From Sulfolobus sp. E5-1-F (GTDB lineage Archaea > Thermoproteota > Thermoprotei_A > Sulfolobales > Sulfolobaceae), in NCBI RefSeq assembly GCF_009601705.1, contig NZ_CP045687.1, positions 1,028,630 to 1,092,629 on the forward strand: a stretch of 64,000 nt of DNA. The letters run 5' to 3'. This document shows positions 55,494-64,000 of this stretch, piece after piece; positions within the stretch are counted from its first letter, which is position 1, and each line of letters starts with the position of its first letter. The notes beneath the pieces are model-generated. The model made no database searches. It was not told where the DNA came from and was given only the letters and a program-made list of their open reading frames with translations. Position numbers and translations under genes: made by a program.

Positions 55494-57614
55494 TTATATT
55501 TTAACATTGTAAGATTTAATTACGCCTTTGAGCGTATAAATTATAATTACAGCAGCAGCGAAACCTGCAACTACATCACCAATCATTCTAAACCACACTA
55601 TTAAGTCTGGAATAGGTTGTAGATAGAATAATGTACCTTTAGCTGCCCAATAACCTACCTTTAAAACCGTAGCTAGTTGCACAGCGCCCAAAGCCCATAA
55701 ATCAATTGTCTGTAACATAAATCCAATAGCATAAATTAATATCATAATTCTTAGTACCTTTAGTTCGTTTTCATTAATTCCACCGGACAAATACAACGCA
55801 GCGATCCACATTAGAATAGCAGTTATACCCCATACTAATGGGAACGCTAAATGTGCGTGAGCCATGGTAAATTGTAGACCATGAACATAATAGTTTATCA
55901 TTGGAGCGTTTAATATTGAAGCCCCGCCAATGATCCCACCTAGAAATCCACCTCCGATAGCTGAAATTAAAGTTGTAGTTATTAACGTCTTTTGAAATTC
56001 AGTCCTAGTTTCACCTCTTCTCCACAGTAAAATTGCGTAATAAGTTAAGAAGAGAATAGGGACAACTTCTAATATAGCTGCTGATGCTCCTAAGTACATC
56101 CAGAATAATGGTTCCCCTCCAAAATAATAATGATGCGCAGTACCTATCATTCCAGAAAGTATCTCGCTAACGGAATCTATACTCGCTGCCATCGTAGCTA
56201 GACTTGGTGGTACTAAGTCATTAGTAACTAAAAGTATTAGTATTATTGGAATTACTATAGAGGGCCAGAATCCTTCCACAAACGAGTGTATCATGATCCA
56301 TAAGAAGAACTGGTCTTCCGTGAAGTTCGGCCATGGGACAATTATGGGTAATGATCCAAAGATCGCACCTATTCCAGACCCTAAGAGACCTATTGCAGCA
56401 ATCCTAGTTAATGGTCTTAAAGCTTCCGCAGTTGACTTTGAAGCTTTGAAAAATAATAAAGAAGCTAGAAAGAGTATAAGCGCAACTAGGAGTAACCAGA
56501 AGGTCCCTTGATCTACGTCATTTGGCTTTCCTTGAGCACCAAAAATGAACCAGTAGGGTGATGGAATCAGTTGATTATAGGAGAACAATATTCCCAGAAG
56601 TAAGCCCACTCCGGCAAATAGGGTTAAACCTAAAATAGAAAATGAGAGCTTTCTGGATAAGGGGACACCCAAATATGGTAACGCGAAGATTGAAAAGGCA
56701 ATCCACGTAAGTGCTATCCATACCACTGCCATGTTTAAGTGTAAGGCCCTAGTAACGTTAAAAGGCAAGAAGTTTATTAATCCCAGTATTCCCTCTGGAT
56801 CTGCGTAATAATGCATAGCTAGATATCCCAACAAGCCTTGTAGACCTGCGAGGACTGAGGCAAAGAACACTCCTATCAGTCCCACTCTTTGCGCCGCGGA
56901 GGGTGAAGGAAGGAGAATGGATATTCTAGGATCCCTCCAGTGGTCAAGTATTTTTAGACTGACGTAACTAACCATTGAAACTAAAACTGCTAAAAGGACA
57001 ATTACCATTATCCATGTGGAGAGACTAACATTTACGGTGGGCTGAGTTTGTTGAGGCATATACGGGAACCCATTCGTATAGCCTAGTAGAGAGACCATAG
57101 CGCCCCATAAGATAAACGATGTTATATTTCTTAAATCGTTCGGGTTAACTAGATGAGGTTTAAGTCCGTAGTTAGAGGAATTATTGTATAAAATGTTGTA
57201 TAGCTCATTGTAAAGCGCGTTATAAGCTTTTACGTAATCATTGGACACTATCCATTTGCCTGCTTCTGCATAAGTTATAGAAGAGTATGTTGGACCGTCT
57301 ACCTTTATCGTAGATGGATCAGCAGTTTGATTTATATATTCCAAAGCTAGGGCGGTATAATCAATTCCGTAATAACCCCCGAATCCCCAGAAACTACCGT
57401 AGTCAAATAGCCCGTATTTTTGCATGAGTACCTTTCCGCTTATGACCTCACTTCCCGTGAATAGTATACTGCCATTTTCAGTTTCAACTACTGATGGGAT
57501 TGGTGGCAAATGCGTTAACGTGTAGCCAGCTAGTGCAATGTAAACTACATATACAAGAACTGTTGCAATTAACACTAAATTCGACCAAGCGTCAGCTTTA
57601 GTCTTTTTAGACAT
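55494..57614 (-). CDS. qNOR-like nitric oxide reductase / heme-copper oxidase superfamily protein, divergent
   Basis: 706 aa, about 14 membrane segments. The N-terminal extracytoplasmic part (GKVLMQKYGLFDYGSFWGFGGYYG) is the qNOR type. Heme ligands: ALHLNMAVVW (low-spin His, about 294), IGTAHHYYFGG (HH, about 498-499) and FTMAHAHLAFP (His pair, about 605-607). The metal-centre segment reads MIHSFVEGFWPSIVI, where NOR normally has a second Glu four residues after VEG; here it is Pro. NO reduction by quinol is the best guess, but the active site is altered. It is separated by 171 bp from the sre cluster. Confidence 0.8.
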   Translation of the reverse strand: MSKKTKADAWSNLVLIATVLVYVVYIALAGYTLTHLPPIPSVVETENGSILFTGSEVISGKVLMQKYGLFDYGSFWGFGGYYGIDYTALALEYINQTADPSTIKVDGPTYSSITYAEAGKWIVSNDYVKAYNALYNELYNILYNNSSNYGLKPHLVNPNDLRNITSFILWGAMVSLLGYTNGFPYMPQQTQPTVNVSLSTWIMVIVLLAVLVSMVSYVSLKILDHWRDPRISILLPSPSAAQRVGLIGVFFASVLAGLQGLLGYLAMHYYADPEGILGLINFLPFNVTRALHLNMAVVWIALTWIAFSIFALPYLGVPLSRKLSFSILGLTLFAGVGLLLGILFSYNQLIPSPYWFIFGAQGKPNDVDQGTFWLLLVALILFLASLLFFKASKSTAEALRPLTRIAAIGLLGSGIGAIFGSLPIIVPWPNFTEDQFFLWIMIHSFVEGFWPSIVIPIILILLVTNDLVPPSLATMAASIDSVSEILSGMIGTAHHYYFGGEPLFWMYLGASAAILEVVPILFLTYYAILLWRRGETRTEFQKTLITTTLISAIGGGFLGGIIGGASILNAPMINYYVHGLQFTMAHAHLAFPLVWGITAILMWIAALYLSGGINENELKVLRIMILIYAIGFMLQTIDLWALGAVQLATVLKVGYWAAKGTLFYLQPIPDLIVWFRMIGDVVAGFAAAVIIIYTLKGVIKSYNVKI

Positions 57615-57785: not shown

Positions 57786-58328
57786 TTAACGATTAACTAC
57801 AAAGATAGTTCGTACTACATAATCTAAGAATTGCTTAAACGCTGTGCCTAGCAGTTTTGTGCACTCCCCTTTACTGTTTTCTAAAATATCCTCAATTAAT
57901 TTTGGAACCCAGCTTACTATATGCTCTCTTATAAACCTCCTAGCTTCCTCTTCTTGTCCTATGAATAAGAGGAATGATACGAACTCTAATTCAGCAGATA
58001 TGTGGTCAGGTAATTGTTTCTTTGGATAAATACCATATTTAGTATATTCTTCCAATACTCTCTGTGCTGAAATTCCATACACAGTTTTTTCCCTATACCA
58101 AGATTCGTAAGGTGGGCATTTAACGTGCTTATAATCATTTATAAAACATGAAGTGAATTCTGTAGCTACCTTATCGTAATAACTTTCTGTCAATTGTATT
58201 ATTTGCTTTAATATATCGTAGTATGGTCTATCCTTTATCTCCTCCACAAGTCCCTTAACGTCTTTAATATATCTAGGACTTAGAAATAAAAATGAGAAGA
58301 TTTTGAAATCTGTAGATAGTGACCTCAT
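57786..58328 (-). CDS. sreE: TorD/NarJ-family chaperone, SreE-like
   Basis: 180 aa, helical. [11 protein letters not shown] and [19 protein letters not shown] are the TorD/DmsD landmarks; these chaperones guide folding and export of the Mo catalytic subunit. Last gene of the cluster; its ATG overlaps the sreD stop by 4 bp. In Acidianus ambivalens the order sreABCDE is known, with SreE as the chaperone. Confidence 0.85.
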
Positions 58329-59668
58329 CTTAGACCACCTTTAGGTTTAAATCTTGCATTAAATGAAAACTGCTTCTGAAATGCGTACTCTGCCCTATGT
58401 TTAGGGCATCTCTCCAACCAATCATCTTCACAAGAAGCTCCCTTTTCCACCATTATTTTCTTAACTTTATCAAGACTTTTTCTCGAACCCACTGGTGCTC
58501 CACAAACTCTACATCTCACTAACTCATCTTCTACTACCTTCCTAATCTCTCTGGTAACATTCTTGCTTTTCTCCATTTTAATAACCTTAGTTGAAGGAAC
58601 TCCCTTCATCTCATCTTTACACGACTCTGGGCAAACATTAACGCACACATTACAGCCTATACATTTCATTGGATCAAAGTCTATTTCTTCCACTCCACTA
58701 TGCTTTCTGAGCTTTAGTGCTGACGTGGGACACTAATTAACGCAGCTTTCACATAAGGTACACTTGTTATTATCAATACTGACGTCAAACAATATGTATG
58801 GCAAATCATCGTATATGTTCCTCCTAGCCTCAGCCCTATTGTAAAATGATTGTGGGGTGGTGGTTAGTTTCTTTGCCTCTTTTGCCTCAATACTTTCAAA
58901 TGGTGAGTAAAAGCTAATTCCCCCTATTCTTTCGTTGTATTCTTTTATAACATTAACAAAGGGTTTTAAGTTTTCTTGTAATTCACACCCAGGACACTCA
59001 AAGGTCAAATTTCCATTAATTCTCAACAACACTATATCTACTTCTGATAGCATTGCTAAACAAGGTATTTTTACTCCTCTATTTTTAGTATTCCTATAGC
59101 ATGTAATCCTCTTTTCCCCTTTTACTTTTGCTAATTCAAATATTGAATTTTGAGATACTGATGGGAATTGTATTGCACTAACTGGACATGAAGCTACGCA
59201 TAGACCACACGATCTGCATTTTGTATAATCAATACTTACTCCAGTCTTCTTTTCAACCTTAATAGCGTTATAAAAACAGGATAACTCACATACATTACAT
59301 GCCTTATATAAGCCATTGCAATATTCACTAAGGTAAACTGGCTTGTCAACCTTGGTAGTCTTTTTTACCTCTCCATGTAATAGGCTTCGTCTATCAATGG
59401 ATCTTCTCTCTTCAACTGGTGCTAAATCTGCTAACCAAGCGTTTTCTAGAACTACCTTATTATACTCTATTTCTTCCTTACTACTATCCTTGTCAACTAC
59501 CCTTATAAGTAGAGGATTTAGTCCTAGATCTTCTGCAACTTTTTCCCTATCAATTTCATCTCCCATAACGATTAAGGCCTTAGCATTAACATTTTCTTTT
59601 TTTAACTCAGATGAGGATAAAACATCTACTTTGTATTTAATAAGTGGAGAATAAAAAAAGGATGTCAT
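58325..59668 (-). pseudogene. sreD: SreD-like polyferredoxin interrupted by an in-frame TAG (58733-58735)
   Basis: One frame of 448 codons broken only by a TAG after codon 311. Before it: YCNGLYKACNVCELSC (about 117-132), CRSCGLCVASCP (about 149-160) and CTLCESCVN; after it CPTSALKL and CIGCNVCVNVCP. The stop sits inside the motif C-x2-C-x2-C-x3-C-P, where a small hydrophobic residue is usual. The downstream part could restart at GTG 58693 and has ferredoxin and CxxC sites. SreD is a cytoplasmic electron-transfer protein in the sulfur reductase. Either a recent nonsense mutation, a sequencing error, or read-through. Confidence 0.85.
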
Positions 59669-59674
59669 ATGAGG

Positions 59675-60966
59675 TCACTTGAATATAAGATGTTTTGCTT
59701 CCTCATCTTCTTCTAACGGCAATAGTAACACGCCCAATGTGTAAATCCCTAGGAATAATAGGACAGAGCCAATGAAGAATACTAGATCATAGAATGAGAT
59801 ATTGAATGATAAAAATGTCCATAATGGGCCATGATTGAAAGTACTACGTAGCTCGTAAATCCAATTGGAATTTGTGGGTGATATTGGTGAGATTGAATAA
59901 TACCACGTTATCGATTGTGGTATAATATCGGCTAACGAAATTATCGAGAACATTCCCAATAACGTGAATATTGAAGATGCTACTAACATATGGCCACTTC
60001 CCTTTTTATATGTTAGCCCGTAAAGGATCAGTGGAATTATCACACCAATTACTATTCCACCTATTAGAAAGACTACACTATATGGTCCAGAAATCATTAG
60101 TTCTGCCCAAGGAGAAGTTTGTTGATTTGTTGCTGTTAACCATAACCACCACAGTAGTGAAAACCCAACTGCTATTGTAGCTAATACACCATCCCTTCCT
60201 AGTGTTTTATACACGACATTTACGCTTAACCTATTTCGATCTTCCTTAACTTTTCTAAATCTATTATATAATGGAGTCATAAATGACAGCATCGCAATAC
60301 CGGAATAGAATGATAATATGACAAATAACATTGACATGAATGGACCGAACTCGTAAACCCATGTTGATAAATAACCAAATACTGAACCTAAGTTTGCATC
60401 CAATATTAACTCTACTAATACTGCATAGCCAACTATGAATACTAATACCGATTTCGTTGATAGCCAAACTAAGAGTCTACTAATAGGATCCCTATATTCC
60501 TTTCTCTTCTCTCCTATTAATGCTAGTATTTCTAGTATTATTCCGATCCCAACAAGCGCGTATAATACACCGTTCCAAGCTATTCTTGATGTATCTCTAA
60601 AGCTTGTGTAAATATAGATAGCTTCTCCAGGCTTAAAGGTTGATGCGAAAACCATAATCCAACCCGGTATTAGTACTGCAAGTGCTATCCACTCGTTTCT
60701 TAACGAGATACTCTTAAACGGATTCTTTTCTGCATGATTCTTATTGAACACTTCATATAGTGAATTATAAGTGCTTACACCAGTACCTATAACTCCGAAA
60801 AACATATAGCCGATTACTAAAAGCCCCCAAGGTATTGGTTCGTCATTAGGCTCAGTAAATGTCACTAGGCCGTTTGCCCATGCAATGGGATTAAAGCTCA
60901 TACCGTAAAGTAATACTCCACCTCCAATTATAATGAATATTATAGTCCATACTAATAGGAACTTGT

Positions 60967-60970
<4 letters not shown>
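59675..60970 (-). CDS. sreC: NrfD/PsrC-like membrane anchor, SreC-like
   Basis: 431 aa with about ten membrane segments. [20 protein letters not shown] is the NrfD-family opening. It passes electrons between quinone and the Fe-S subunit of the complex. Start ATG overlaps the sreB stop (60967-60970). The C-terminal hydrophilic tail [12 protein letters not shown] is short. Confidence 0.87.
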
Positions 60971-61653
<683 letters not shown>

Positions 61654-61659
61654 TAGTGA

Positions 61660-64000
61660 TCACCCTAATGTAGAAACATTGCCATATGAGACGTACTGTT
61701 GCCAATCACTCTGAGAAGCAGAAGTATTAGGAGTAGTAACCTTAACTTGTTGCGAAGGTAATGTATCTGGAGTTTGAACACTTGCCAATTGTGTTGCGGC
61801 TTGAATTTCATCAAATGTTGCTTTCCTAACTCTAACAGTAAATTGCTCATTCATATGATAACCACCTAAAGGATTTCTCCCTGGTGCCCACATTACTGAT
61901 ACTGGTTGATTGCCAAACTCATTTACTGCTTTAGTTGCTGTAGTTAACGCTGGGTTCCTTTGGCCGAAAGGCTCAGGTACTCCAATCGTATCTGGCCTTA
62001 TCCACTGAGTCAAATGGGCCCTAACGATTAGTTTTGGTATCGTACCGTCTGGATTTGGTAATTTCCACCTTTCGATAGCGATCCAATCTCCTTCGTTAAT
62101 TCCTAATTGTGCAGCAGTGATTGGATTTATCCATGCCCTCATTAAGATATCTTTATGGTAACTATCAGAAGCAATAGCCATCAATAGTGGATTGTCAGCG
62201 CTAGAAGTATAAGCGAATTGTGGGATCTTATACTCTATGAAGAAGAATTCTGGCGGTGTTGGTTTGAACGTTGGTTCATTATATGGCGCTGGAGGTGGAT
62301 GATAAACACCCTCCTCAACTGCGTAACCTCCATTCCAATTTGGTGGTATTTCAGCTATTATTGGATCCCATACTGGGTCATATCCATAATTCTGTATAAC
62401 GTAATAGTATAATATAGTTGAATATATCTCAATCCTACCAGTTGGAGTTGCAACTGGTAAGTCCCAGGGTATTCTTTCATGATCTACAAAATAATCATTA
62501 ATAGTTTTAATTATAATTACACCATTATTTCTTAAGGTTTGTAATATTTGCTCCTTAGGCATGTTTAGCTCCTCTGACAATACGCTAAGTTGTGCCTCTC
62601 TCCACGCTTTGGCTGTGAAACTACCCCATGGTGGGTAACCGTTATTCTGAATTAAATATTGTTGATATTTAGGCATCTCTTGTTGTATAACTGACTTCAT
62701 TATGTCTAAAGGTACCCCAGTGAACCTTGACATCCATTGTATATAAGCGTCTCCAGCTTGAGGATTTAACATATATGCAAACATTACAAATAAGTCTAGG
62801 CCATTTGCAGTATTTGGCCATAATACTGGTATTGTCTGCCACCTACCTCTAATTGCTCGATCCATAGCTGGACCATCATCCCAGAAGAATTCGTCTCTCT
62901 CTAGATAAGTTACATCCGGTAGAATTACATCTGCGTATAAACTAGCCTCTGTCGGTAAGATATCTATCATAATGTAAAATGTATTCTCCAACACTTGCTT
63001 ATACTCATCCCATTTGAAGTTAAATGGCGAACCTCCATAAGACATTACAATTTTAGGTTTATACTGTTGTCCATTCCAATTAACTTGCCCATTAATTGCG
63101 ACATATGATCCAGATTCTTCAAATAATGTATAAGCTCCAGCTGGTTTCTTCCCTTGTTGCTTTAGAACCTGATTATAGACATAGCTAAGCGCTGGAACAC
63201 CATGGGACCAAAATGAAGGATTATTATAAACGTATATGATAGGGAACATAGCGAATAAAGCCCCAGGCAAATCATTGACTGGTAATTGTTCCAATACCTC
63301 AGGCCTTTGTAGTAATATACCAGGCTTCGTCTTCCCACTACTGACCATGCTATTATAAGCGTTTACAACTTTCTTGACACCTTCTCTGTAGACCGCAGAA
63401 TACACCCAACCTCCTCTAATGTCTATGTTACCAGTTAGAGCCATTATAATTGCGTAAGCTTTTCTAAATTGTACAGCTTGATCGTTGAAGAAACCCTTTA
63501 ATCCAGTAATTATCGTCATTGGTTTCATTGTTGCAATTCTAAATGCTAGTTCTTGAAGTTGTGATAGAGGAACGTCTGCTACTTGCGCAGCATATTCAAG
63601 CGTATAATTACTAACTTTTTGTGCTAGGAATTGGAATACTGTTTGCACATGTTTACCATTATAAGTTAAACCTTGAGGCGCATATAAGGCTGGTCTGATA
63701 AAATTACCGTTAACATCGTATTTATTAGTATTTGTAAATGGTGGTACATTTACAATTTTTCCACTTATTTCGTCGTAAACGTAATATGTATTTACTGTAC
63801 CATCATTATAATCCTCTTCTAATAATTTGACAACTCCGTTCTCTTCATAGGCTAAGAAGGGAGCATTAGTGTAATACCTCACAAACTCGTCATCATAATA
63901 GTTATTTTGGATTAAGTAGTTAATAATAGCCATGGCAATATACAGATCAGAACCTGGTTTTGCTGGAATCCATAGATTAGCCTTAGATGCGGCCTCACTC
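61660..64000 (-). CDS. sreA: Molybdopterin oxidoreductase catalytic subunit, SreA-like (partial, 5' end off window)
   Basis: At least 779 codons are present; the frame stays open through position 63999, so the start (with the expected Tat signal, Fe-S motif and Mo ligand) is missing. The visible part begins [20 protein letters not shown], a DMSO-reductase-family signature, followed by [20 protein letters not shown]-like text ([20 protein letters not shown]), [19 protein letters not shown] and the C-terminal MGD-binding domain ([21 protein letters not shown]). First gene of the sre cluster. Sulfur or polysulfide reduction is inferred from the cluster; tetrathionate or other substrates are possible. 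Confidence 0.88.

Follow-up and report, generated by a model that had tools for sequence, protein, structure and literature searches.

What does a single stop codon mean when it falls inside a cysteine motif of an otherwise well-preserved gene? The window that we analysed (64,000 bases, positions 1,028,630 to 1,092,629 of the genome of Sulfolobus sp. E5-1-F, which is assembled as one contig of 2,543,529 bases) contains such a case in sreD, the gene for the polyferredoxin that belongs to the sulfur reductase cluster. Its frame, on the minus strand, runs from an ATG at 59668 to a TGA ending at 58325 and is open except for one TAG at codon 312 (58735-58733); with the TAG ignored, it encodes 447 amino acids. 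The initial annotation had described a frame open on either side of this TAG and a cysteine motif split as CTLCESCVN-stop-CP. Retranslation and the whole-genome copy of the gene, which carries the same single stop, gave the same picture. The residues read CTLCESCVN-stop-CPTSALKL (NNKCTLCESCVN before the stop and CPTSALKL after it), so that the third motif, of the form CxxCxxCxxxCP, carries TAG at codon 312 instead of the Trp of an uninterrupted SreD frame. On both sides of the stop, the frame aligns over its full length with orthologues (82-84% identity), which indicates a real gene rather than two open reading frames (ORFs) that adjoin by chance. A genome-wide search found no second copy of sreD, and we found no literature on an interruption of this gene. 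We consider the TAG to be, with a probability of roughly two in three, a very recent amber nonsense mutation (TGG to TAG) in an accessory gene.

The surroundings of sreD agree with its identity. The genes are all on the minus strand in the order A-B-C-D-E: sreA (61660..64000, running past the window edge) encodes a molybdopterin oxidoreductase with a TAT signal, the catalytic subunit; sreB (60967..61653) an Fe-S subunit; sreC (59675..60970) an NrfD-type membrane anchor; sreD (58325..59668) the polyferredoxin; and sreE (57786..58328) a chaperone of the nitrate-reductase-delta/TorD type, as judged from Pfam domains. The start of sreE overlaps the sreD stop (ATGA), and an AGGTGG motif lies six bases upstream of that start. 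In accordance with the earlier claim that the cluster is otherwise intact, sreA is complete in the genome (1059 amino acids), and sreA, sreB, sreC and sreE all have their full length, with 86-96% identity to their counterparts in three related genomes. In gene order and domain content (molybdopterin subunit, Fe-S subunit, NrfD anchor, polyferredoxin and chaperone), the cluster matches the sulfur reductase operon sreABCDE, which is known from Acidianus ambivalens and other Sulfolobales (Laska et al. 2003, cited after PMC8551704 and PMC3189178). The differences are that sreD is broken here by one stop and that the genome is without a [NiFe] hydrogenase: no large subunit of this enzyme was found in the genome, and S. 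solfataricus and S. islandicus have likewise been said to lack it (PMC5127849). Published descriptions of SreD call it a polyferredoxin whose function is unknown (PMC3189178, PMC8551704). Directly downstream of sreE and in the same orientation lies nor (55494..57614), which encodes a NorB-like haem-copper protein and is intact here. In G015, a genome of the same genus, about 1.4 kb interrupts the nor gene adjacent to sre (locus L069, 3391-4825), which fits the transposase that S. solfataricus P1 and P2 are described to carry at the nor site (PMC5127849).

The comparison with orthologues that the initial annotation had called for was made with SreD from nine other genomes of five genera, with one genome per species (the Metallosphaera yellowstonensis protein was obtained from two collections). 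Every one of these orthologues has TGG (Trp) at the TAG column, and in none of the nine genomes is there a stop at this column or an sreD split in two genes. This indicates that the TAG is one G-to-A transition peculiar to this genome, and intact orthologues together with a private lesion are what one expects of a recent nonsense pseudogene. It also bears out the view that the stop takes the place of a single residue in a SreD that is intact apart from it, and the scenario in which all orthologues would end at this point and be followed by a separately conserved second gene does not apply. When the search was widened to 398 genomes from the phylum, no further SreD orthologue came up at the strict threshold used. 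More distant paralogues have Lys or Arg at this position, which suggests that Trp is typical of SreD but that the ferredoxin motif can do without it. Among relatives, the sre cluster has a patchy distribution.

The part of the gene after the stop shows how young the lesion would have to be. After the TAG come 135 codons that are free of further stops and frameshifts. When a variable linker is left out, omega is 0.13 after the stop and 0.10 before it, and the differences after the stop fall at the three codon positions as 8/7/33, that is, 33 of 48 at third positions. With all columns counted, omega is 0.20-0.25 after the stop against 0.10-0.12 before it (p about 0.03-0.05), but we do not take this as a sign of relaxed selection, because the signal came from the linker, whose length differs by 8 codons, and disappears without it. 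If the stop is real, it may be too young for relaxed selection to show. A rough Poisson bound limits any neutral evolution to about 20-25% of the branch of this lineage at most. The absence of decay and the purifying selection after the TAG thus imply that the stop is young, not real or without effect.

That linker-dependent relaxation would be one argument for a SreD that works in shortened form, or as two pieces of which the second is started at the GTG at 58693. Upstream of the stop, residues 117-165 also form a complete first dicluster domain, and an ORF of 122 amino acids does follow from this GTG (58325..58693, minus strand), as had been pointed out before. The suggestion that this ORF yields a separate second piece finds no support, as the GTG is not conserved as a start: close relatives have it as a plain Val codon, and distant relatives lack it. 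Since the stop also lies inside the CxxCxxCxxxCP motif and the relaxation does not survive exclusion of the linker, we regard a working shortened or two-piece SreD as improbable.

If the stop is not real, the TAG would be an error of base calling or consensus, or a variant that became fixed in the sequenced culture alone, and the natural gene would be intact with TGG. A lone substitution in an otherwise undecayed gene, with a TAG found in no orthologue, is in line with this explanation. We therefore estimated how often genes are interrupted in this assembly by comparing 258 genes in a 320-kb sample of the genome with those of a relative (G014). Five of the 258 genes were flagged as interrupted, and one of these five is a true pseudogene with multiple lesions. 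The other four were judged to be artefacts: three have stops upstream of the probable real start and one is antisense to a real gene, which we take to encode ribosomal protein L15. Lone interruptions of genuine genes are thus rare in the sample, which argues against a poor assembly, even if a single wrong base could still occur. As the assembly looks good, consists of one contig and shows no other credible lone interruption among the sampled genes, we consider an error or a culture variant a possible but rather unlikely source of the TAG. The pseudogene in the sample (1747306-1748040 of the genome) is channel-like and carries one frameshift and in-frame TAG and TAA codons relative to G014.

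If the stop is real but without effect, the UAG would have to be read through to give full-length SreD. The conserved downstream frame is compatible with this, the inserted residue need not be Trp, given the Lys or Arg of the distant paralogues, and some interrupted genes of S. solfataricus have been reported to be expressed (PMC8211752). Published archaeal read-through concerns selenocysteine and pyrrolysine only (PMC8211752). The sreD case resembles the archaeal pyrrolysine genes in that an in-frame UAG lies within a conserved protein, but it differs in several respects. None of the 46 tRNA genes in the genome has a CUA anticodon. The best match to PylS reached 25.6 bits against a cut-off of 178, and matches below the cut-off were also present in most control genomes. 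The stop is not conserved, contrary to what one would expect for programmed read-through, and the orthologues have Trp. No stimulatory structure was found downstream of the stop, where the fold is no better than that of shuffled sequence (z = 0.20), and no Rfam element was found at the sreD locus. In addition, TAG ends 56 of 298 conserved ORFs in the 320 kb compared with G014, 13 of them where G014 has TAA, which indicates that TAG terminates normally in this genome. The read-through option of the initial annotation is thus left with neither decoding machinery nor a conserved stop nor a stimulatory structure, and production of full-length SreD by this route is very unlikely; programmed or tolerated read-through of codon 312 in a crenarchaeon without the pyrrolysine machinery would be slightly less probable still. 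Two calls of 'tRNA-Pyl' by ARAGORN were discarded, as with introns allowed they are tRNA-Arg genes with the anticodons CCT and TCT. Without introns, the program reports 'tRNA-Pyl (cta)' at L064 1501-1589 and L077 123-213, and this is a trap in screens for amber suppression in Sulfolobales.

A recent nonsense mutation in sreD therefore remains our preferred reading. Ribosomes would stop at codon 312 and release a SreD of 311 residues (58733..59668, minus strand), which keeps 15 of the 25 cysteines, and the earlier proposal of a shortened product holds unless something rescues translation. This product stops one residue short of the fourth cysteine in the third motif. In ferredoxins with two clusters, the fourth cysteine of a motif belongs to the neighbouring cluster. 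For this reason the second dicluster ferredoxin domain would be lost as a whole, together with the C-terminal cysteine region, and the truncated SreD is probably non-functional or unstable. SreA, SreB and SreC would still be made. SreE is probably still translated as well, because it has its own Shine-Dalgarno-like AGGTGG motif, although its output is perhaps lower, since coupling to the translation of sreD would be lost. The cell could tolerate the lesion if SreD is an accessory polyferredoxin of an accessory cluster, and in a genome without a [NiFe] hydrogenase, where none would feed the enzyme as in Acidianus, loss of such a protein may be tolerated.

The patchy presence of the cluster among relatives also favours a mutation, as does the fact that pseudogenes are reported to be common in S. 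solfataricus (PMC8211752). That review stresses frameshifts in A/T tracts. The lesion in sreD is a substitution, but nothing essential differs, and it is like the point-nonsense pseudogenes of Saccharolobus and Sulfolobus (PMC8211752) in that one recent change would have inactivated an accessory gene whose frame is otherwise intact. Two points count against a nonsense mutation: an error or read-through would explain the undecayed downstream frame equally well, and lone interruptions of genuine genes are rare in the sampled 320 kb. Most likely, the stop in sreD is an ordinary mutation rather than a novel use of the genetic code, and it is a caution that a lone in-frame TAG followed by a conserved frame is not by itself proof of recoding. 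If the TAG is confirmed, this natural truncation could be used to learn whether the sulfur reductase depends on SreD.

A separate observation concerns the sre cluster of M. yellowstonensis MK1. A block of 10,016 bases (NZ_JH597761.1, 434,082-444,097) is 99.87% identical to a Saccharolobus genome (G013; the loci of the shared block are L036 1-8403 and L150 18082-20000). No description of it was found in the available part of one comparative paper on Metallosphaera (PMC7325606). The block contains an intact sre cluster, has sharp edges and cuts nor at one of them, and the stretch that holds it has a G+C content of about 34-40%, whereas the contig has about 44-53%. Judged from these sequence features, it looks like a recent transfer between genera, and an assembly chimera is less likely.
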